Shown in pieces: positions 36,190 to 48,739 of a DNA stretch of 64,000 nt. Numbering within the stretch: position 1 is the first letter of the stretch; every line of letters begins with the position of its first letter. Made by a program: the position numbers and the translations under genes. The notes under the pieces were generated by a model, which searched no databases, had not been told where the DNA came from, and was given only the letters and a program-made list of their open reading frames with translations. The DNA is from an uncultured Nitrospira sp. Lineage in GTDB: Bacteria; Nitrospirota; Nitrospiria; Nitrospirales; Nitrospiraceae. The stretch spans positions 1 to 64,000 of the forward strand of contig CABVSR010000002.1 in the NCBI GenBank assembly GCA_902500995.1. Reading direction: 5' to 3'.

Positions 36190-38235
36190 TCACGCCCCCT
36201 CCTTGATGGCTCGCGTGTTCCGATAGGCCCGTAAGACTTCGCCCACGCTCCAGGCTTGCGCAATGCAGCCCCGCGGATGATACGGCGGTTCCGCATCGAA
36301 AATTTCGCTCACCGTCCCGATGCCGTCATCGAGCAGGTGGGAACGGAATCCGTCCAACATGCTCCGCGCCTCGGACCGGTCTTTGTAAACCTTGAGCCAG
36401 GCGTCGATGAAGGGTCCGATCAGCCAGGCCCAGACGGTGCCTTGATGGTAGGCCGCATCCCGCGCGCGCAGATCGCCGAAATACATCGGCTTGTAGTCGG
36501 GATGCTCGCGAGACAAGCTCCGCAGGCCCACCGGAGTCAGCAGACGATCCTTCACCAGGTCCACCACGCTTCGCCACCGGGCTTCCCGGAGGACGGGATG
36601 CGGCAGCGCGATGGAAAAAATCTGATTCGGCCGGAACGCGGAATCATCGCCTCGTTCCCCGTCGATCACGTCAGACAAACATCCTTCAGCGTCCATCCAA
36701 AACCGTTTGTTAAACGACTCCTCCGCCTGATCCGCCAACTCGCTCCAGCGGGACGGCGACCGGCCGACAAGGCTGGCCCATTCCTCCATACAGCGGAGAG
36801 CGTTGTACCAGAGCGCCTGAATCTCCACTGGTTTTCCCCGGCGCGGTGTCACGACCCAGCCGTCCACCAAGGCATCCATCCAGGTGAGCTGATATCCCTC
36901 CGCCGCCGCCCTCAGAAGACCGTCTTTCGGATCGACACCGATGCCGAAGTGTGTGCCCCGGATATGATGCTCCAGGATGGACGTGAGCACCGGCAGCAAG
37001 GCCAGCAGCGTCTCCCGATCGCCTGTCACCCGTTCGTACCGATGGAGCGCGTGAACAAACCAGAGCGTGGCATCCGCCGTGTGGTAGAGCGCCATCCGCT
37101 CCCCTTCCGGAAAGAGGTTCGGGATCAGGCCATCCTTCACGTAATTGGCAAAGGTGCGGAGAATCGAGCGGGCCTCCCGATGCCGGCCGGTGCAAAGAGT
37201 GAGACCTTCCAAACTGATCATCGTGTCCCGGCCCCAATCCGTAAACCAATGGTATCCGGCAATGATCGTGCGCGCCTCACTGCCTGACGCCCTGGCCAGT
37301 GCCTGTTCTTCCAAGCGGGATCCGGGGGCCACGACAAACTGATCCGCCGCCAAGGTCAACCAGCGTTCGATCTCCTCGTCCTGATCGCCCCCGGTGAGAG
37401 ACAGCAAGGTGTCGAGCCGTTTCGCCTCGGCTTCGAAGATGGCTGCAGGCTCAAACTCGAGCAGCTCCCAGGGCTCGGTACTGGCCACGAAGGCGACGGG
37501 CCGGCCTTGCGCCAGGTCCGCAGTGAAGCAGCCAGGGCTTGCGAGACTCTCGATATGCTCCGATCCTCGATCGCGATCCACGCGATAGGACATGCCGGTG
37601 CTCAATTCATAATCCGCGACAAACAAGCCGCCCTGGGGCCGCAGGCACAGTCTCAACGGCGGTGCCCCTTCGCAGAGATGCATATCGTACCGGCCGTTGA
37701 CGACCGTCAGTGGAAACGGAGGGCGCTTGGCGTCATGCAATCGCGCATCCAACATCCGGAACGTCACAAACGGACGGAGACGGAGGCCGACCGCGTCGCC
37801 TTCCACCAGACGATATTCGACGTAGACCGAATTGTGTCCATAAGGCATGATCACGCGTTTTTCCAGCCGGCGACCCTTCAGGCGAAAACGCCACACCGGT
37901 GTCTGCCGTTCGCGTCTGAATCCATCGAAGACCGGAAGGAAGTCGCCCTCAAGACGCCCATCCGAAAACTCCACGCCGCTCAACCGCAAGGCTTCTCCGT
38001 CGACCAGCACGTCATCGTCCAGGCGAGGCATCATGACGGTGCGTCCCCAGGGAGCAGGCAGATCCGGGACGAACAGACCATGGTATCGCCTGGTGGGCGC
38101 GCACAGCAGGCTCTGCGAGGCGTAGCCGCCGAGCCCGTTCGTCACCAACCATTCCCTGGCGAGCAAGGCGTTACGATCGCGCAGGCGCTCGGGCGGCACC
38201 GTGAGCACCATGGCGTCGGTCTGTGCCGTACTCAT
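36190..38235 (-). CDS. Glycogen debranching enzyme, amylo-alpha-1,6-glucosidase type (GH133-like)
   Basis: A 681-residue enzyme. The N-terminal beta-rich domain (REWLVTNGLGGYASQSLLCA, PTRRYHGLFVP) is followed by an (alpha/alpha)6 barrel with IAGYHWFTDWGRDTMISLEG, PNLFPEGERMALYHTADATL and AYHQGTVWAWLIGPFIDAWL, all typical of archaeal/bacterial GDE proteins that release glucose from alpha-1,6 branch points. ATG 38235 overlaps the treZ stop by four bases and has AGGAGCAG before it. With glgC and treZ in the same window it points to coordinated glycogen breakdown and trehalose formation under stress. Confidence 0.9.
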   Translation of the reverse strand: MSTAQTDAMVLTVPPERLRDRNALLAREWLVTNGLGGYASQSLLCAPTRRYHGLFVPDLPAPWGRTVMMPRLDDDVLVDGEALRLSGVEFSDGRLEGDFLPVFDGFRRERQTPVWRFRLKGRRLEKRVIMPYGHNSVYVEYRLVEGDAVGLRLRPFVTFRMLDARLHDAKRPPFPLTVVNGRYDMHLCEGAPPLRLCLRPQGGLFVADYELSTGMSYRVDRDRGSEHIESLASPGCFTADLAQGRPVAFVASTEPWELLEFEPAAIFEAEAKRLDTLLSLTGGDQDEEIERWLTLAADQFVVAPGSRLEEQALARASGSEARTIIAGYHWFTDWGRDTMISLEGLTLCTGRHREARSILRTFANYVKDGLIPNLFPEGERMALYHTADATLWFVHALHRYERVTGDRETLLALLPVLTSILEHHIRGTHFGIGVDPKDGLLRAAAEGYQLTWMDALVDGWVVTPRRGKPVEIQALWYNALRCMEEWASLVGRSPSRWSELADQAEESFNKRFWMDAEGCLSDVIDGERGDDSAFRPNQIFSIALPHPVLREARWRSVVDLVKDRLLTPVGLRSLSREHPDYKPMYFGDLRARDAAYHQGTVWAWLIGPFIDAWLKVYKDRSEARSMLDGFRSHLLDDGIGTVSEIFDAEPPYHPRGCIAQAWSVGEVLRAYRNTRAIKEGA

Positions 38236-40196
38236 CGCTGCTCCTGCCGGTTCGGGCTCGCCTTTACCGTTGTCTCCGGGCTCTCCACAGGAGTTTCCTC
38301 GCGGGCGGCGTACAGGAAGGCAGCACCGCCGGGGATCCGCCATCCGCTGTCCGTCAGGGGTTCGATCACGCCCGGCCCGCCGTAGAGCGGGTCGTCGCTC
38401 GACCAGCGAAACGACCAGGCATGCCCGGCCGGCGGCGCGAGCAACGGTTCCGGAGCCGGACGAAAATCCAGGTCCGGACCGAGGTTCACGATCAACAATC
38501 GATCACGTCTCTGAGCTCCGGCATAGCGCAGGACAAACGCCGAGGGTCCGATGACGGCGCCATCCACCAGATCGCGCCGCTGTTGCGTGATCACCTCGTC
38601 CTCCCGGCGCAGTCGCAGCAGATCTCGATGGAAGGCCACCGTGCCGGCATGGCGGTCCCGTTCCGCCCAGTCCAGCTTCGATCGCTCGAACACGGACGGC
38701 GCACAAGGATCAGCCATCGCATCCTGCGCGGCAGGCGCGGCATAACTGGGAAATTGGGCGAGAAATTGTTTCCGGCCCTGTTGAATGTCCGTGGCCAATT
38801 GGCCCGGCGGAAAATCGGTAAAGAAGAGAAATGGAGAGGAAGCCCCGAATTCCTGCCCCATGAACAAGAGCGGAGTTTCCGGGGCCAGGAGGAGCAGCGC
38901 CGTCAAGGCCCGGTACACAGAAGGGCCCACCTTGTGGTGCAAGCGATCGCCCCACAATTGGTTCGCAATTTGGTCATGATTCTGGAGAAAAAAGACAAAC
39001 CCTTCGGCGGCTTCGTCCGAGACTACCGTACCCCGCGGTTTCCCCTGCCATTGATACCGCTGGCCCTGATAAAGGAACCCTCGTTTCACGCAGGAAACAA
39101 ACTCCTGCGCGCTCCCGCGATAATCGGTGTAGTAGCCTTCACTGCGCCCGGTGGCCGCGACGCGCACCGCATGATGAAAGTCTTCGCTCCACACACCATC
39201 CAATCCCCAACCGCCCTGCGCGACCGGCCGAATGGTTTGCACCCATTGCGCTTCACATTCGGCGATCAGGATGATGGGTCGGCTACCGGCTGTGCGCCTG
39301 GCTGCTTGAGACAGTTCCGCCACGACATGGAGCGGGCCGGCATCATGAAAGGCATGCACCGCATCCAATCGCAATCCATCGACGTGGTATTCATCGATCC
39401 AGTAGCAGGCGTTTTGAATAAAAAACTCCCGCACGGGCCCGGAACCAGGCCCATCGAAATTGATGGCCTGCCCCCACTCATTCGGATACCGGTCGGTGAA
39501 ATACTCCTCACTGAAAAGCGGCAGATAGTTTCCGTCAGGACCCAGATGGTTATAGACCACATCCAGAATCACGCCGAGCCCGCGCCGGTGCGCTTCATCC
39601 ACAAAACGTTTGAAGCTGTCCGCGCTGCCGTACACATGCGCCGGCGCGTAGAGACCGACTCCGTCGTAGCCCCAGTTCCAGCGGCCGGGAAATTCGGCTA
39701 CCGGCATGACTTCCACCACGGTGATCCCGAGGTCTTTCAGAGCATCCAGTTTTGTGACCGCAGCGTCGAAGGTGCCTTCAGGCGTGAACGTGCCGATGTG
39801 CAATTCATAGATGACCTGGCCATGCATCCTGATGCCGGGCCAGTGCCGGTCCTGCCAATGATAGGCGCCGGGGTCGACGATGAGTGACGGGCCGTGCGGT
39901 CCTTCAGGCTGAAAACGCGAACAGGGGTCGGGATAGGCCTGCCCGCCGTCCAGCCGGTAGCGATAGTGCATGCCGGCGGACGCCTGCGGTATCAATCCGG
40001 TCCAATAACCTTCCGCCTGCCTGGTTAATGCATGCTCGGTCCTTTCTGGCTCAAGCACGACATCGACCAGGGCCGCCCGCGGCGCCCAACAACGGAATTG
40101 AACGCCGCCCTGTGTGAGCTGTGCTCCCAGCCTTAGACCCTGCTCGCGACCCGTCTCCGTCTCGGCTTCCAACGCCACCTTCCCACTGCCGCTCAT
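38232..40196 (-). CDS. treZ: Malto-oligosyltrehalose trehalohydrolase
   Basis: A 654-residue GH13 enzyme. After an N-terminal carbohydrate-binding fold (GVQFRCWAPRAALVDVVLEP) the catalytic barrel shows VIYELHIGTFTPEGTF, NWGYDGVGLYAPAHVYG, the nucleophile Asp in VDGLRLDAVHAFHD, the acid Glu in ILIAECE, and the transition-state Asp in FFLQNHDQIANQ. GVWSEDFHHAVRVAATG is characteristic of TreZ rather than GlgB or GlgX. It releases trehalose from maltooligosyl-trehalose made by TreY, which is not encoded in the window. ATG 40196 has GGGGGA before it; the frame extends to a TTG at 40217. Confidence 0.9.
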   Translation of the reverse strand: MSGSGKVALEAETETGREQGLRLGAQLTQGGVQFRCWAPRAALVDVVLEPERTEHALTRQAEGYWTGLIPQASAGMHYRYRLDGGQAYPDPCSRFQPEGPHGPSLIVDPGAYHWQDRHWPGIRMHGQVIYELHIGTFTPEGTFDAAVTKLDALKDLGITVVEVMPVAEFPGRWNWGYDGVGLYAPAHVYGSADSFKRFVDEAHRRGLGVILDVVYNHLGPDGNYLPLFSEEYFTDRYPNEWGQAINFDGPGSGPVREFFIQNACYWIDEYHVDGLRLDAVHAFHDAGPLHVVAELSQAARRTAGSRPIILIAECEAQWVQTIRPVAQGGWGLDGVWSEDFHHAVRVAATGRSEGYYTDYRGSAQEFVSCVKRGFLYQGQRYQWQGKPRGTVVSDEAAEGFVFFLQNHDQIANQLWGDRLHHKVGPSVYRALTALLLLAPETPLLFMGQEFGASSPFLFFTDFPPGQLATDIQQGRKQFLAQFPSYAAPAAQDAMADPCAPSVFERSKLDWAERDRHAGTVAFHRDLLRLRREDEVITQQRRDLVDGAVIGPSAFVLRYAGAQRRDRLLIVNLGPDLDFRPAPEPLLAPPAGHAWSFRWSSDDPLYGGPGVIEPLTDSGWRIPGGAAFLYAAREETPVESPETTVKASPNRQEQR

Positions 40197-40228
40197 TGCG
40201 TCCCCCAATGGTCTCAAGCAGTATGCAG

Positions 40229-41469: not shown

Positions 41470-43002
41470 ATGAACAAAGAACCTGGACAAACCGTGTCTC
41501 CCTGGATGTCGCAAGAGGTCCCCCCGTTACCGAGCATGTCCACGGGGGCGCATGCCGATGTCTGCGTCGTCGGCGCGGGGATCGCCGGCGTCACGACGGC
41601 CTATTGCCTGATGAAGGAAGGCCGATCCGTGATCCTGCTGGATGACAGCCAGCCGGGGCGCGGCATGACGGAACGCACGACGGCGCATCTCTCCAATGCG
41701 ATCGACGCGGGGTATACAGAAATCGAGCGATTGCACGGGCTGCAAGGCGCGCGTCTGGCGGCGAACAGTCACACGGCGGCCATCGATTGGATTGAAAAGA
41801 CCGCCCACGAAGCCGGCATTGACTGCGACTTTCTCCGCCTGGACGGCTACCTCTGCGCGGCGTCTCCGGATGATGCCCAACGGATCAAGGATGAATGGGC
41901 GGCGGCTTTGAGGGCAGGGCTTGCCGATGTCGAACCGGTTGACCGACTTCCCGGTCCCCTCACCCAGAACGGTCCCTGCTTGAGATTTCCCCGCCAGGCG
42001 CAATTTCACCCGATGAAGTATCTGGCCGGCCTGGTGAAAGCCATTGCGCAAGGTAAATGCCGCGCCTTCAGTGGATCACATGTCACCAAGGTGGAAAGCG
42101 GCAAACAAGTCCGCGTGGAAACGAGTCAGGGATGCGTCGTCACGGCGGACGCCGTCGTCGTGGCCACCAATACGCCCATCAACAACATGGTGACCATCCA
42201 CACCAAACAGGCCGCCTACATCACCTATGTCATCAGCGCGACCATCCCGGCCGGCGCGGTGGAACAGGCCTTGTGGTGGGACACGCAGGACCCCTATCAC
42301 TATGTGCGAACCCAACGCCGGTCGTTGCCCGGTGGCGGCGAGGAATTACTCCTCATTGTCGGCGGGGAAGACCATAAGGCCGGCCAGGCCGACGATGCCG
42401 AATTCCGTTACGGCCGGCTTGAAGCCTGGGCGCGCGCGCAATTTCCCGCCATGGGCGGCGTAACCCACCGCTGGTCGGGGCAAGTGATGGAGTCGGTCGA
42501 TGGCTTGGCGTTTATCGGCAAGAATCCCGGCGATGAGAATGTTTACATTGCGACGGGTGACTGCGGCATGGGCATGACGCACGGAACCATTGCCGGCCTG
42601 CTTCTGACCGATCTCATCAAGGGCCGCGACTCACCCTGGTCGTCGCTGTATAACCCTTCGCGCCATCCGGTGAAGGCCATGGGAGAATTCGTGCGCGAAT
42701 CCCTGAACGTGGTCGCGCAATATACCGACTGGGTCACCAAAGGCGATGTCGCACGCGCGGAAGATATTCCCAACGGAGAAGGCGCGGTGCTGAGAGACGG
42801 CCTCACCAAAATCGCCGCCTATCGCGACGCCGACGGCGTGCTGCATACCTGTTCCGCGGTCTGTCCGCATCTCAACTGCATTGTATCCTGGAACCATTCC
42901 GAGCACACGTGGGATTGCCCCTGCCATGGATCACGTTTCGATAAATTCGGTCAGGTCCTCAACGGGCCCGCGATTACCGACCTCACCCGACTGAATACGT
43001 AA
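41470..43002 (+). CDS. FAD-dependent oxidoreductase with C-terminal Rieske domain
   Basis: A 510-residue fusion. The N-terminal DAO-type flavin domain starts DVCVVGAGIAGVTTAYCLMK (dinucleotide fold near residue 30) and ends with VYIATGDCGMGMTHGTIAGL. The C-terminal 90 residues form a Rieske [2Fe-2S] domain with ligand motifs CPHLNC and CPCHGSRFD. The architecture matches proteins annotated as gamma-glutamylputrescine-oxidase-like/Rieske oxidoreductases of stress clusters; the substrate is unknown. It has no signal peptide. Only the palindromic promoter at 41368 lies upstream. Confidence 0.88.
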   Translation: MNKEPGQTVSPWMSQEVPPLPSMSTGAHADVCVVGAGIAGVTTAYCLMKEGRSVILLDDSQPGRGMTERTTAHLSNAIDAGYTEIERLHGLQGARLAANSHTAAIDWIEKTAHEAGIDCDFLRLDGYLCAASPDDAQRIKDEWAAALRAGLADVEPVDRLPGPLTQNGPCLRFPRQAQFHPMKYLAGLVKAIAQGKCRAFSGSHVTKVESGKQVRVETSQGCVVTADAVVVATNTPINNMVTIHTKQAAYITYVISATIPAGAVEQALWWDTQDPYHYVRTQRRSLPGGGEELLLIVGGEDHKAGQADDAEFRYGRLEAWARAQFPAMGGVTHRWSGQVMESVDGLAFIGKNPGDENVYIATGDCGMGMTHGTIAGLLLTDLIKGRDSPWSSLYNPSRHPVKAMGEFVRESLNVVAQYTDWVTKGDVARAEDIPNGEGAVLRDGLTKIAAYRDADGVLHTCSAVCPHLNCIVSWNHSEHTWDCPCHGSRFDKFGQVLNGPAITDLTRLNT

Positions 43003-43101: not shown

Positions 43102-43143
43102 GACCTCATACTTACATCCATGTTTAACGATGGGGAGGTGACT

Positions 43144-43572
43144 ATGCGAAGGACGATGATGCTGGCGGCCGGTCTCATGCTGATGGTGACGGGATGCTCG
43201 AACTTGCCCGCGGTGACCCGGACGGGAGACGTGAAGGACATTTTTATCAGGACTAATTTGGAGCCGGTCGAGCAGACCGCCGCGGCAGGAGACGAAGTGC
43301 GTTGGATCAATAAGAGAAACGGTCCGGTCCGTATCGTCTTCCTTCAACCTGTGGATGAAGCCATGAGTTGCAATAACGGATTCAGCCGCGGCTTCATGAG
43401 TCTCTTCCGCCGGGCCGGCACCGCTTCGCTCGATCCCAACGAAACGGCCAGCGTGTGCATGAAAGAGCCCGGCTTCTACCGTTATACCGTACGCATGGAA
43501 TCGGCCACTCCGAGCGGTGAGATCAACTCCTCGGGTGTGCTGCGGATCGGAAACGTGGGCGCGCGGCAATAG
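43144..43572 (+). CDS. Cupredoxin-like lipoprotein (first copy)
   Basis: A 142-residue exported protein, lipobox MVTGC. The mature domain resembles a plastocyanin-like beta sandwich (AAAGDEVRWINKRNGPVRIV, PNETASVCMKEPGFYRYTVR), but it contains no His, so a type-1 copper site is not possible. Two Cys are shared with the paralogue at 48302 (SCNNGFS and VCM), perhaps a disulfide. GGGGAGGTGACT before ATG 43144 fixes the start. Two Slp genes and the HAD-ATPase follow on the same strand. Confidence 0.72.
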   Translation: MRRTMMLAAGLMLMVTGCSNLPAVTRTGDVKDIFIRTNLEPVEQTAAAGDEVRWINKRNGPVRIVFLQPVDEAMSCNNGFSRGFMSLFRRAGTASLDPNETASVCMKEPGFYRYTVRMESATPSGEINSSGVLRIGNVGARQ

Positions 43573-43623: not shown

Positions 43624-44199
43624 ATGAAACCGTGGAAACCATTGCTGATCGCCGGCGTAATCCTTCCTCTGTTCGCGGTCGCTGGCTGTAACCAGTACCG
43701 TGTCATTCCGGCGCAATATGAAAGTCAGGTGAACAAGGATTTGACCTTGGCGGACGCGAAGAAGCATACGACCAATGCGCAAGGACAAATGGTGGTGTGG
43801 GGTGGAGAAATTCTGAAATCGACGCGCCATCCAAAGGAAACCCGGATCGAAGTGTTGCAACTTCCGCTGAATGACGATTTGATTCCGGCCGGGGAACGTG
43901 TCGAATCCTCCGGCCGGTTCGTGGCGGTCGACAACCAGGGTGAAATTATCGACCCAGCCGTAGTGCCCGAAGGAACACGCGTCACGATCGTCGGCCAACT
44001 TCGACCGTCCGGCGCCGTTTCCAGTGATCCGCTTGTCCAGGACGCTCCGGTCATTGCCATCAGAGACATGACCGTGTGGAACAAGGAGATGACCCGTGCC
44101 TGGCCCTATTATCCGTATCATGGTCCTTACTACGGCGGGTACTACTACGGCTATCGACCCTATGTGTTCTGGGACGGGGCCCGCGTGCCGGGTAGTTGA
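43624..44199 (+). CDS. Slp-family outer-membrane lipoprotein (second of three)
   Basis: A 191-residue protein with lipobox VAGC. Slp blocks: YRVIPAQYESQVNKDLTLAD, GQMVVWGGEILKSTRHPKET, RIEVLQLPLNDDLIPAGE, SSGRFVAVDNQGEIIDPAVV and TRVTIVGQLRP. The tail is Tyr/Pro/Gly-rich (YYPYHGPYYGGYYYGYRPYV). GAGAGGTGCAGC precedes the ATG. It shares a transcription unit with a cupredoxin-like lipoprotein and the third Slp protein. Confidence 0.87.
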   Translation: MKPWKPLLIAGVILPLFAVAGCNQYRVIPAQYESQVNKDLTLADAKKHTTNAQGQMVVWGGEILKSTRHPKETRIEVLQLPLNDDLIPAGERVESSGRFVAVDNQGEIIDPAVVPEGTRVTIVGQLRPSGAVSSDPLVQDAPVIAIRDMTVWNKEMTRAWPYYPYHGPYYGGYYYGYRPYVFWDGARVPGS

Positions 44200-44261: not shown

Positions 44262-44816
44262 ATGAGACAGAGGCTGCGTGCGTTCGCCATGGGAGCAACT
44301 TTATTGACGGCCACCGCCTGCGGGACATATGAGGTGATCCCTTCTCATCTGGAAGACAAGGTCCGCATGGACCTCTCATTCGACCAAGTCGCGCAGAACC
44401 CCGGCGCCCACGAAGGCGACCTGGTCATGTGGGGAGGGAAAGTCCTGGCGGTCAACCGGATCGAGGGCAAGACGAGAATCGAGATGCTGCATCTTCCCTT
44501 GGACGGCGTGCACTGCCCGATCGACGCGCCGACCGCCTCCCGGGGCCGATACATAGCCGTGGACACAGGGCACGAAATCGAATCCCCGGCGTCCTTGCCC
44601 AAGGACACGCTGGTGACCGTTATCGGGGAGGTGCGTGGTGTGATCAACGCCCCTCTCGACCAGGGGCAATACGCTTATCCGCGCATCGCCATCAGGGACA
44701 TGACGGCTTGGGAGAGACAGACCGGCATTCGGCATTCTCCGCCGGGAGCGCAAATGCACGGGTACCGGCCCTTTGTCTTTTGGGATAGCCGGCGAGTCGT
44801 CGGCCGGGACAAATGA
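44262..44816 (+). CDS. Slp-family outer-membrane lipoprotein (third of three)
   Basis: A 184-residue paralogue of the preceding gene. The signal ends in TATAC, a less standard lipobox, with Cys as the first mature residue. Slp blocks: YEVIPSHLEDKVRMDLSFDQ, GDLVMWGGKVLAVNRIEGKT, RIEMLHLPLDG and LVTVIGEVRGV. It ends with MHGYRPFVFWDSRRVVG, matching the end of the second copy (YRPYVFWDGARVPG). It is followed 16 bases later by the HAD-ATPase gene. Confidence 0.85.
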   Translation: MRQRLRAFAMGATLLTATACGTYEVIPSHLEDKVRMDLSFDQVAQNPGAHEGDLVMWGGKVLAVNRIEGKTRIEMLHLPLDGVHCPIDAPTASRGRYIAVDTGHEIESPASLPKDTLVTVIGEVRGVINAPLDQGQYAYPRIAIRDMTAWERQTGIRHSPPGAQMHGYRPFVFWDSRRVVGRDK

Positions 44817-44832
44817 CCGGGCAGGTGGGAAC

Positions 44833-46572
44833 ATGATGCGCTACTTGGCGTTGGCCGCGGATTATGACGGCACATTGGCGTCGGATGGAGCCGTCTATCC
44901 GGAGACCGTCGCCGCGTTGGAGCGGCTGGTGGCGTCCGGACGGAAGCTCATCCTGGTCACAGGCCGGATTCTCCCGGAGTTGTTGGAGATTTTCCCGCAC
45001 ATTTCGCTGTGCGAATTGGTCGTCGCGGAAAACGGGGGACTCCTCTACCGGCCGGCGACCAAAGAGATCACCCTGCTGGCCGCCGCACCGCGGCCGGCGT
45101 TTCTGGAAGAGGTGCAACGCCGGGGGGTACAGCATCTCAGTCTCGGGCACATCATCGTCGCCACGCGAGTGCCCTACGAAACCGTCATCCTCGACATCAT
45201 TCGCGATCTGGGCCTTGAGCTCCGCATTATTTTCAACAAGGGCGCCGTCATGGTGCTCCCGCACGGCATCAACAAGGCCACGGGGCTGACCGCCGCGCTG
45301 GCCCGTCTGGAACTCTCCCCTCACAACTGCGTCGCGGTCGGAGACGGAGAAAACGACCATGCCATGCTGGCCCTATCAGAATTTGCCGTGGCGGTCAGCA
45401 ATGCCGTCCCGATGTTGAAAGAAACCGCGGATCGCACGACCATCGCCGATCACGGGCGCGGTGTCATCGAACTCATCGACGATCTCCTCGCGGACGACCT
45501 GGCGGCGGCGGAACAGAAGATTTCGAGACACGGACTGCTGCTGGGCCGGCGATCCAACGGCGAGGAGGTCACGCTCCCCTTCGGGCGGCGGAATCTGCTG
45601 GTGGCCGGCACGTCCGGAAGCGGTAAGTCCACGCTTGCCACCGGGCTGCTTGAGCGGCTGGGCGAACAGGGGTATCAACTCTGCGTCATCGACCCGGAGG
45701 GAGACTACGACAATGTGCCGCAGGCCGTGATCCTCGGCACCGCGCAGAACGGTCCCAGCCTGAACGAAATCCTGACGGCCCTGGCTAACCCGCAAACCCA
45801 CGTCGTGGTCAATCTGGTCGGTCTGCCGCTACACGATCGTCCGGCGTTTTTTCTGGGACTGCTCCACAAGATCCTCGAACTCCGCGCCGCCGGCGGGCGG
45901 CCTCACTGGATTCTGATCGATGAAACGCATCATTTGCTGCCGCGAGACGGCAACCCCACGGCACCCGGTCTGGCGCAAGATTCATCCGGTCTGATCTACG
46001 TCACCGTGCATCCCGATCAAATCGACCCGCCGATTTTGAAGACCGTGGATCTGGTCTTTGCGCTCGGCCAGTCGCCGGGAGAAACCATCGCAAACTTTTG
46101 CCGCGCGGTCGGCCGGGACATTCCTCCCCTGCCGTCCGCCGATCTTGAACGCGGCCAGACCCTTATGTGGGAGACCAATTCGGGGAGTGGTCCCGAGGTG
46201 CTGGAGATCGCCGCCAGCACGAGCGAACGCCGACGGCACAAACGGAAGTATGCGGAAGGCGAGCTGCCTCCCGATCGCAGTTTCTACTTTAAAGGCCCGG
46301 CAGGGCAATTAAACCTGCGGGCTCAAAACCTGCTCCTCTTCATGCAACTCGGAGAAGGGGTCGATGAAAAAACCTGGCAGCACCACCTGGAAGCCCATGA
46401 TTACTCCGCTTGGATCAGCGAGATGATCAAGGACGAATCGCTGGCGCAGATCGTCAGGGAGATCGAGTCTCGGCCGGGGCTCCCCGCCGCTGAGAGCCGG
46501 AGACTCATCCGCTCCGCCATTGAAGAACAGTACACGGTGCCCGCCGGGGGCATCGAACCCTCTTCCACCTAG
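44833..46572 (+). CDS. HAD-IIB phosphatase fused to a HerA/VirB4-like P-loop ATPase
   Basis: A 579-residue two-domain protein. Residues 1-225 form a Cof/sucrose-phosphatase-type HAD hydrolase: nucleophile Asp10 and Asp12 in ADYDGT, Thr43 in LVTGR, Lys148, and GDGEND at 170-175. Residues about 230-540 form an ATPase with Walker A GTSGSGKST (259-267), the HerA/VirB4-type DPEGDY (287-292) and Walker B ILIDE (360-364). No membrane segment is seen. ATG 44833 (with 44836 in frame) follows GGTGGGA; the frame continues to 44773 inside the Slp gene. Substrates of both domains are unknown. The stop codon lies at the end of an inserted repeat element. Confidence 0.82.
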   Translation: MMRYLALAADYDGTLASDGAVYPETVAALERLVASGRKLILVTGRILPELLEIFPHISLCELVVAENGGLLYRPATKEITLLAAAPRPAFLEEVQRRGVQHLSLGHIIVATRVPYETVILDIIRDLGLELRIIFNKGAVMVLPHGINKATGLTAALARLELSPHNCVAVGDGENDHAMLALSEFAVAVSNAVPMLKETADRTTIADHGRGVIELIDDLLADDLAAAEQKISRHGLLLGRRSNGEEVTLPFGRRNLLVAGTSGSGKSTLATGLLERLGEQGYQLCVIDPEGDYDNVPQAVILGTAQNGPSLNEILTALANPQTHVVVNLVGLPLHDRPAFFLGLLHKILELRAAGGRPHWILIDETHHLLPRDGNPTAPGLAQDSSGLIYVTVHPDQIDPPILKTVDLVFALGQSPGETIANFCRAVGRDIPPLPSADLERGQTLMWETNSGSGPEVLEIAASTSERRRHKRKYAEGELPPDRSFYFKGPAGQLNLRAQNLLLFMQLGEGVDEKTWQHHLEAHDYSAWISEMIKDESLAQIVREIESRPGLPAAESRRLIRSAIEEQYTVPAGGIEPSST

Positions 46573-46748
46573 CCCGGACTATTCATGAACACCTGCTGCG
46601 TCGTCCGATCCTCTCGCCCGGCGGGGCTTTTCTCGTTCGGCCTCCTCAACGGACTGAAAGTACGCCTGCGTCGGCCTCACCTGCGAGAAGCCCCGGCGGG
46701 CTTCGGTCTCGAACGCCTCGCGGAGGCATTCATAAATAATCCGGGCTA
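46570..46748. mobile_element. MITE-like element with 20-bp terminal inverted repeats
   Basis: The left end TAGCCCGGACTATTCATGAA (46570-46589) matches the reverse complement of the right end (46729-46748) at 18 of 20 positions. The 179-base interior has inner hairpin arms (GCGGGGCTTTTCTCG near 46621 and CGAGAAGCCCCGGCGGG near 46684) and no gene. The element's TAG is the stop codon of the HAD-ATPase gene. Confidence 0.75.
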
Positions 46749-48301: not shown

Positions 48302-48739
48302 ATGAAGACCTTGATGCACTCACTGTTGGCCCTCGCGATGCTTTCGCTGGCAGCCTGCTCGAGTTCACCGACCGCGACGAAGACACGATCCGAAATGGAG
48401 GCGGGGACAAAGACGGGCATGGTGAAGAACATCGTCATCAACGAGCGAATCACTCCCGATGCCCTGACGGTGAGGGCGGGAGACGAAGTCCGCTGGATCA
48501 ATCAACGGCAGGATTCCATCACCGTCACGATCGACGGCCCGCTGGAACACAATGTGTCCTGCCGGAACGGTTTCTCCAAGGCCATGGGAATGGGCGTGGA
48601 TAATTCGACCACGCTGGCGAGCAATGAAACCGCCGGCCTCTGCTTCAGCCGCGTCGGCACTGTGAAGTATTCGGTGAGGCCGTCGGGCGATGTGAGGACC
48701 ACCATGGCGGATACCCATGGCTCCATCACTGTGCAGTAG
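48302..48739 (+). CDS. Cupredoxin-like lipoprotein (second copy)
   Basis: A 145-residue lipoprotein, lipobox LAAC. It is a paralogue of the gene at 43144: VRAGDEVRWINQRQDSITVT, SCRNGFSKAMG, NETAGLCFSRVGTVKYSVRP align with the first copy including both Cys. It has a His (LEHNVSC) but not the two-His/Cys/Met set of type-1 copper proteins. AAAGGAGGAC is a strong ribosome binding site. It stands alone between the DUF6279 gene and a long hairpin shared with the convergent catalase gene. Confidence 0.72.
   Translation: MKTLMHSLLALAMLSLAACSSSPTATKTRSEMEAGTKTGMVKNIVINERITPDALTVRAGDEVRWINQRQDSITVTIDGPLEHNVSCRNGFSKAMGMGVDNSTTLASNETAGLCFSRVGTVKYSVRPSGDVRTTMADTHGSITVQ

Follow-up and report, generated by a model that had tools for sequence, protein, structure and literature searches.

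In the window, the whole 64,000-nucleotide stretch of DNA analyzed here, an open frame of 579 codons (44833-46572) encodes an HAD-IIB phosphatase, a HerA-like ATPase and a half copy of DUF5752 in a single chain. We tentatively propose, from its sequence features and gene associations, that this protein may be an ATP-controlled sugar-phosphate phosphatase in the trehalose/compatible-solute branch of the stress response. This proposal draws on the three domains with their folds and intact active-site residues, the absence of both finger motif and HAS-barrel from the HerA-like part, the conservation of the fusion across phyla and the linkage of DUF5752 to the trehalose synthase TreT. DUF5752 is the best functional clue among the three domains. 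The folds are all known, and their combination is widespread and apparently undescribed.

The gene and its domains

The frame is open over exactly the coordinates given by the sequence-only reading, an earlier interpretation of this DNA, and translation starts at ATG 44833 or at ATG 44836, the latter being a possible start because homologues open with MRYxA. The features of the gene are given below, with the evidence in brackets.

44833..46572, + strand: whole fusion gene, 579 aa (ORF, Pfam/NCBIfam profiles, alignment, AlphaFold2 model)
44823..44829, + strand: Shine-Dalgarno-like AGGTGGG (spotted by eye)
44833..45498, + strand: HAD-IIB phosphatase domain with small C2 cap, residues 1-222 (profiles, alignment, fold with Z 27.3 to 1wr8)
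45523..46233, + strand: HerA-like RecA-fold ATPase domain, residues 231-467 (Z 20.7 to 9x1m, 20.6 to 4d2i)
45607..45630, + strand: Walker A GTSGSGKS, residues 259-266 (sequence, alignment)
45691..45708, + strand: DPEGDY, residues 287-292, at the site of the HerA DPHGxY motif (alignment)
45913..45924, + strand: Walker B LIDE, residues 361-364, with the expected downstream HerA EGRK-type finger motif absent (alignment)
46234..46536, + strand: C-terminal DUF5752 half-domain, residues 468-568 (Pfam, hhalign, fold match)
46612..46626, + strand: terminator-like stem-loop 3' of the gene (such sites are no more frequent in the region than expected by chance)

The AlphaFold2 model of the protein has a mean pLDDT of 89. 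The residues cited earlier are all present (Asp10/Asp12 in DYDGT, Lys148, GDGEND at 170-175, Walker A and DPEGDY), together with the Walker B-like LIDE that was missing from that list, and the impression of two intact active sites within one chain agrees with the invariance of the motif residues in 62 diverse homologues. The HAD phosphatase and HerA-type ATPase of the supposed two-domain fusion are real, and the third domain at the C-terminus had been overlooked. The suggestion that the gene lies under an island promoter found no support, as promoter-like sites of the region were at chance level in a consensus scan (2 found, 2.1 expected).

Distribution and descent of the fusion

The search for the same fusion and its neighbours that had been recommended was done by a genome scan, which gave 80 near-full-length homologues of 45-89% identity in about a dozen phyla and a gene neighbourhood that is thematic, with no fixed operon partner. 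The phyla include Nitrospirota, Planctomycetota, Cyanobacteriota with Melainabacteria, Acidobacteriota, Chloroflexota, Actinomycetota, Pseudomonadota, Myxococcota, Bacteroidota, Fibrobacterota and Elusimicrobiota. Finished chromosomes and plasmids are among the sources, and the records name the protein just 'HAD hydrolase'. The alignment holds 67 sequences, all of them stop-free with both active sites kept, and residue invariance was scored over the 62 diverse homologues. Full-length homologues in many unrelated genomes, finished chromosomes and plasmids rule out a chance match or an assembly error, so the earlier proviso that homologues might carry the domains as separate genes, with the fusion a misassembly, is set aside.

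Distances in the HAD part track those in the ATPase part (Mantel r 0.52, a value reached in none of 1000 permutations), the pattern expected if the two have long descended together. The tree of the fusion needs 20 phylum changes against a minimum of 11, and some transfer between phyla is therefore likely, though short of proof. A second subfamily with 31-35% identity occurs in the same bacterial family as the window.

The HAD phosphatase domain

The domain matches Hydrolase_3 at E 6e-27 in the Pfam/NCBIfam profile search and reaches 86.1 bits with the HAD-IIB profile TIGR01484 (cut-off 41.8), which places it in subclass IIB of the HAD superfamily; the 1wr8 structure matched by its model is PH1421. 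The catalytic set comprises D10/D12, T43, K148 and GDGEND 170-175, of which D10, D12, K148, G170, D171, E173, N174 and D175 are invariant in the 62 homologues. The domain varies less than the rest of the protein, with a mean pairwise difference of 42% compared with 47% in the C-terminus and 60% in the ATPase, and this strongest constraint on the HAD catalytic residues suggests that turnover matters.

The fold, the small C2 cap and all catalytic motifs are shared with the HAD-IIB small-cap phosphatases (PH1421/archaeal phosphoglycolate phosphatase, Cof-type, SPP/TPP/MPGP), from which the fusion protein differs by the added ATPase and DUF5752 and by scoring below every substrate-specific cut-off. 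In the profile search the domain stayed under the TPP, SPP and PGP equivalog cut-offs, and TIGR00685 (OtsB) was absent from the matches of the protein at E 1e-5; the sole TIGR00685 match in the host genome is a gene on contig C1. Among the NCBIfam profiles, those of archaeal phosphoglycolate phosphatases score best (E 2e-27 to 3e-27), at 95.7 of the required 122.75 bits and 95.9 of 198 bits (TIGR01487/PRK01158), and the nearest fold relative is likewise an archaeal phosphoglycolate-phosphatase-like HAD. An HAD of Sulfolobus acidocaldarius is non-homologous to known TPPs yet frees trehalose from trehalose-6-phosphate (T6P) (PMC7688234), so the failure of the TPP profiles on the fusion leaves activity on T6P possible.

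The HerA-derived ATPase domain

The DUF87/HerA profile is matched at E 1e-6, and the fold matches HerA of Thermococcus, Sulfolobus and anti-phage systems with Z 20-21 over about 225 residues, so that the HerA core of a RecA-like fold with Walker A and B is present. The residues G259, G264, K265, D287, P288, E289, G290 and E364 are invariant in the 62 homologues. The label HerA/VirB4-like given previously holds for its HerA half, on the fold score of 20.7, and the VirB4 half was dropped, the VirB4/TraE ATPase profile reaching 20.6 bits against a cut-off of 590.

The RecA-like core, Walker A, the DPxGxY-type motif and the D/E-E-A-H Walker B are common to the fusion and the hexameric DNA translocase HerA (4d2i, 9x1m, 8xau), but the core of the fusion is short, the large insertions are absent and no NurA or other nuclease partner was seen. 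The HAS-barrel, which is the characteristic N-terminal domain of HerA (PMC11291478, PMC9960219), is absent from the model in fold comparison and the HAD occupies its place. The Arg/Lys finger motif is missing too. In the DUF4297-HerA structure R455/K456 from the neighbouring subunit form the finger on ATP (PMC11291478), and Thermococcus HerA has 'regrkfgvglglvsqrp' behind Walker B, the regrkfg part of which is the probable counterpart, judging by its adjacent Arg-Lys pair. This finger segment falls in a gap when aligned with subfamily 2. Across columns 371-386 of the subfamily-1 alignment, R or K occurs at any one position in at most 11 of the 67 sequences. A replacement finger is possible, for example the invariant or nearly invariant R336, R351, R356 or R468.

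With both the HAS-barrel and the trans finger motif missing, a role of the fusion as a DNA pump is unlikely. The domain is a derived HerA and no ordinary pump, and it may be an ATP-binding, perhaps ATP-hydrolysing, ring or switch rather than a DNA translocase. It is acidic, with a family median pI of 5.6. A PDB sequence search with the second half of the ATPase alone gave no match, and the 'Pizza'/NHL matches at residues 364-395 were discarded as summed tiny matches to repeat proteins.

The DUF5752 half-domain and its linkage to trehalose synthesis

Residues 468-568 are a half copy of DUF5752 (PF19027), with one repeat of about 100 residues where the full family has two in about 208. The Pfam profile is matched by the C-terminus of 24 of 34 fusion members (best E 5e-7) and its cut-off is exceeded by two members of subfamily 2 (25.9 and 23.7 bits); the window protein itself scores 11.4 bits against the cut-off of 23. 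The hhalign comparison of the fusion C-terminus with stand-alone DUF5752 gave E 4e-10. In fold the half-domain matches OrfY of Thermoproteus tenax (4cso) with Z 10.9 over 94 residues and rmsd 2.2, the next structure being at 5.2, and a motif is common to both; the fusion differs in having one repeat of the two and in its joining to enzyme domains. OrfY, the only solved DUF5752 relative found, was deposited as a 'transcription factor', and the literature searched gave no paper on DUF5752 or on OrfY with T. tenax. The second-best fold match of the DUF5752 half (46228-46569), a weak one with Z 5.2, is the helical domain of GlgE, an enzyme of trehalose-derived glucan synthesis.

A total of 25 stand-alone DUF5752 loci were fetched, of which 24 could be judged (L139-L150, L177-L185, L187-L189), and in all 24 TreT is either the adjacent gene or a few genes away. 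Frequent extra partners are MscS, TreS, OtsA/B and TreY/Z, and DUF5752 often stands behind MscS. The order is DUF5752-TreS-TreT in the genome of the window itself (L139) and DUF5752-TreT-TreZ-TreY in a genome of Pseudomonadota (L182). At two more distant Nitrospirota loci (L146:6981-8357 and L150:6974-8368) a single ORF apparently encodes both DUF5752 and an MscS-like membrane segment, adjoining TreT and a trehalose-phosphatase.

A regulated complex encoded by the msc-gt-tpsp operon makes trehalose in T. tenax (PMC3634074). For this TPSP-GT-MSC complex a single operon couples trehalose synthesis to a mechanosensitive channel and a GT partner, and the DUF5752 operons have a similar parts list; the T. 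tenax TPSP is a GT20-HAD fusion, whereas the present protein has no glycosyltransferase.

Trehalose genes are near the fusion itself in a minority of loci. At L177 and L178 roughly 4 kb separates the fusion from a DUF5752-TreT pair, Slp immediately precedes the fusion, and LigD and GT4 belong to the same island; in Phenylobacterium (L061) a TreT-like GT is divergently adjacent; an Aminobacter plasmid carries the fusion with GT4, amylo-1,6-glucosidase and OtsA and has no recognisable OtsB; and in three Burkholderiales loci (L033, L071, L097) GT4 genes are directly upstream. Within the family of the window the subfamily-1 fusion co-occurs with stand-alone DUF5752 (19/26 against 38/121 genomes, p = 1e-4, with relatedness uncontrolled). 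The host carries a canonical OtsA/OtsB pair, and the OtsB homologue on contig C1 excludes the fusion as its sole T6P phosphatase.

Gene neighbourhood

The fusion ends a same-strand run, and the genes upstream of it in the window are as follows.

36190..38343, - strand: amylo-alpha-1,6-glucosidase
38232..40217, - strand: TreZ-like alpha-amylase-family gene (CBM48, alpha-amylase, DUF3459), the name resting on its resemblance to genes that neighbour TreY and TreT
41470..43002, + strand: FAD-dependent oxidoreductase with Rieske domain, first of the same-strand run
43120..43572, + strand: small lipoprotein-like ORF, cupredoxin-like by eye, without Pfam match (ORF list)
43624..44199, + strand: second Slp-family lipoprotein gene (window annotation)
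44262..44816, + strand: Slp-family lipoprotein gene directly upstream of the fusion with a 16 nt gap, an adjacency also seen in L167, L168, L177 and L178

The amylo-1,6-glucosidase, the TreZ-like gene and Ku are on the opposite strand, and LigD is also within the window. Across 84 loci the stress-island neighbours were stress SDR (19) and, within 10 kb, LigD (9) and Ku (8), counted with no matched control, and Dps, catalase and GT4 also recur across phyla. A fixed operon partner across phyla was rejected, the neighbourhood being thematic with changing content.

The small ORF at 43120-43572 is related to another at 48302-48739, also lipoprotein-like, cupredoxin-like by eye and without Pfam match, and within the bacterial family of the window relatives of both are again found close to the fusion and to OtsA (L169, L173, L177). 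Two subfamily-2 fusions (L154:7505-9235 and L160:7270-9000) lie between hypF-like and hypC/hypD-like NiFe-hydrogenase maturation genes, assigned by eye, a setting suggestive of low oxygen or dormancy.

Proposed function and its alternatives

In the proposed mechanism the protein would be soluble, and its HAD-IIB domain would dephosphorylate a small sugar phosphate, with T6P or some related glycosyl phosphate as the likeliest substrate. ATP would be bound by the HerA-derived domain, which would probably gather the chains into a ring and serve as a switch or scaffold that depends on ATP rather than pump DNA, and the DUF5752 half may dock the enzyme to, or co-regulate it with, the trehalose-synthesis proteins TreT/OtsA. 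Several observations stand against this: the HAD is under the TPP, SPP and PGP cut-offs and nearest in fold to phosphoglycolate-phosphatase-like enzymes, trehalose genes are close to the fusion at few loci, the host already has OtsA/OtsB, the DUF5752 score of the window protein is below the cut-off and subfamily 2 sits among hydrogenase genes. A bolder version is rather unlikely: a motor of the HerA lineage would have been turned into an ATP-dependent ring or switch governing a metabolic phosphatase, as a conserved, horizontally mobile tri-domain machine that ties trehalose metabolism to the energy state of the cell in a dozen phyla, and DUF5752 would be the first docking module common to trehalose synthesis.

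Phosphoglycolate arises from oxidative DNA damage. The protein might be a phosphoglycolate or general house-cleaning phosphatase that shields stressed cells by clearing phosphorylated metabolites that are toxic; its ATPase would then regulate through oligomerisation, and nothing would bind the protein to trehalose in particular. The top profile scores, the PH1421 fold and the general stress neighbours (Ku/LigD, catalase, Dps, stress SDR) fit it, but those scores are below the equivalog cut-offs and the DUF5752 domain with its 24/24 TreT link would be left unexplained. We regard it as unlikely. Somewhat less probable again is a protein that is mainly a regulator, whose DUF5752 would bind TreT or a promoter while the ATPase senses energy and the phosphatase hits a signalling sugar phosphate, tuning trehalose flux. 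The deposition of OrfY as a transcription factor speaks for this, as does the occurrence of DUF5752 alone, apparently fused to MscS and here, the stand-alone and MscS-fused copies being always in a trehalose context; the constraint on the HAD catalytic residues argues against it.

A sugar-phosphate or stress role had been preferred to DNA processing at the outset, and the DUF5752-TreT linkage agrees with that preference, as do the missing finger motif and HAS-barrel. DNA-end processing, in which a HerA-type motor would feed ends to an HAD 3'-phosphatase alongside Ku/LigD end joining, could be argued from the HerA fold and from Ku and LigD near the fusion, in the window as elsewhere; it is improbable with an acidic ATPase stripped of finger motif and HAS-barrel, a capped HAD that suits small molecules, a DUF5752 tied to trehalose and most loci without Ku or LigD. 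An envelope role beside the Slp lipoproteins had also been suggested. At least five genomes from the family have Slp directly upstream of the fusion, namely that of the window and four of another genus (L167, L168, L177, L178), so this pairing is no mere accident of the window, but no Slp gene adjoins the fusion in the annotated loci of other phyla, where the protein is conserved. The envelope role is thus at most a feature of Nitrospiraceae, and an envelope-stress protein partnered with Slp is very improbable as the general explanation.

Significance of the data

A widespread 'HAD hydrolase' is found to be a conserved three-domain machine, which has apparently never been studied before. The literature searched gave no paper on an HAD-HerA fusion, the 2004 HerA survey being outside its coverage so that an earlier mention is possible, and no description of the spread of the fusion, the loss of the HerA finger or the DUF5752-TreT linkage. 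Through this linkage a family of unknown function may merit its own annotation. If the proposal of an ATP-controlled phosphatase is right, a metabolic enzyme is controlled by a protein of the HerA/FtsK motor lineage that does not move DNA, DUF5752 can be assigned to trehalose synthesis, and a point at which soil, plant-associated and nitrifying bacteria control their protective sugars is open to test.

Minor observations

A phage or virus origin was rejected, the viral scan having given just three weak HAD-only matches (25-33%). Fusion genes in two frames were seen twice (G119:C36 in L170, and G244:C1:531152-532881), by decay or sequencing error. In one genome (G147) the protein is encoded by two adjacent genes that are split exactly at the HAD/ATPase border. 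A Nostoc plasmid (L174:8004-8669) carries the HAD domain alone with 57% identity, adjoining an LssY-domain gene and zwf.
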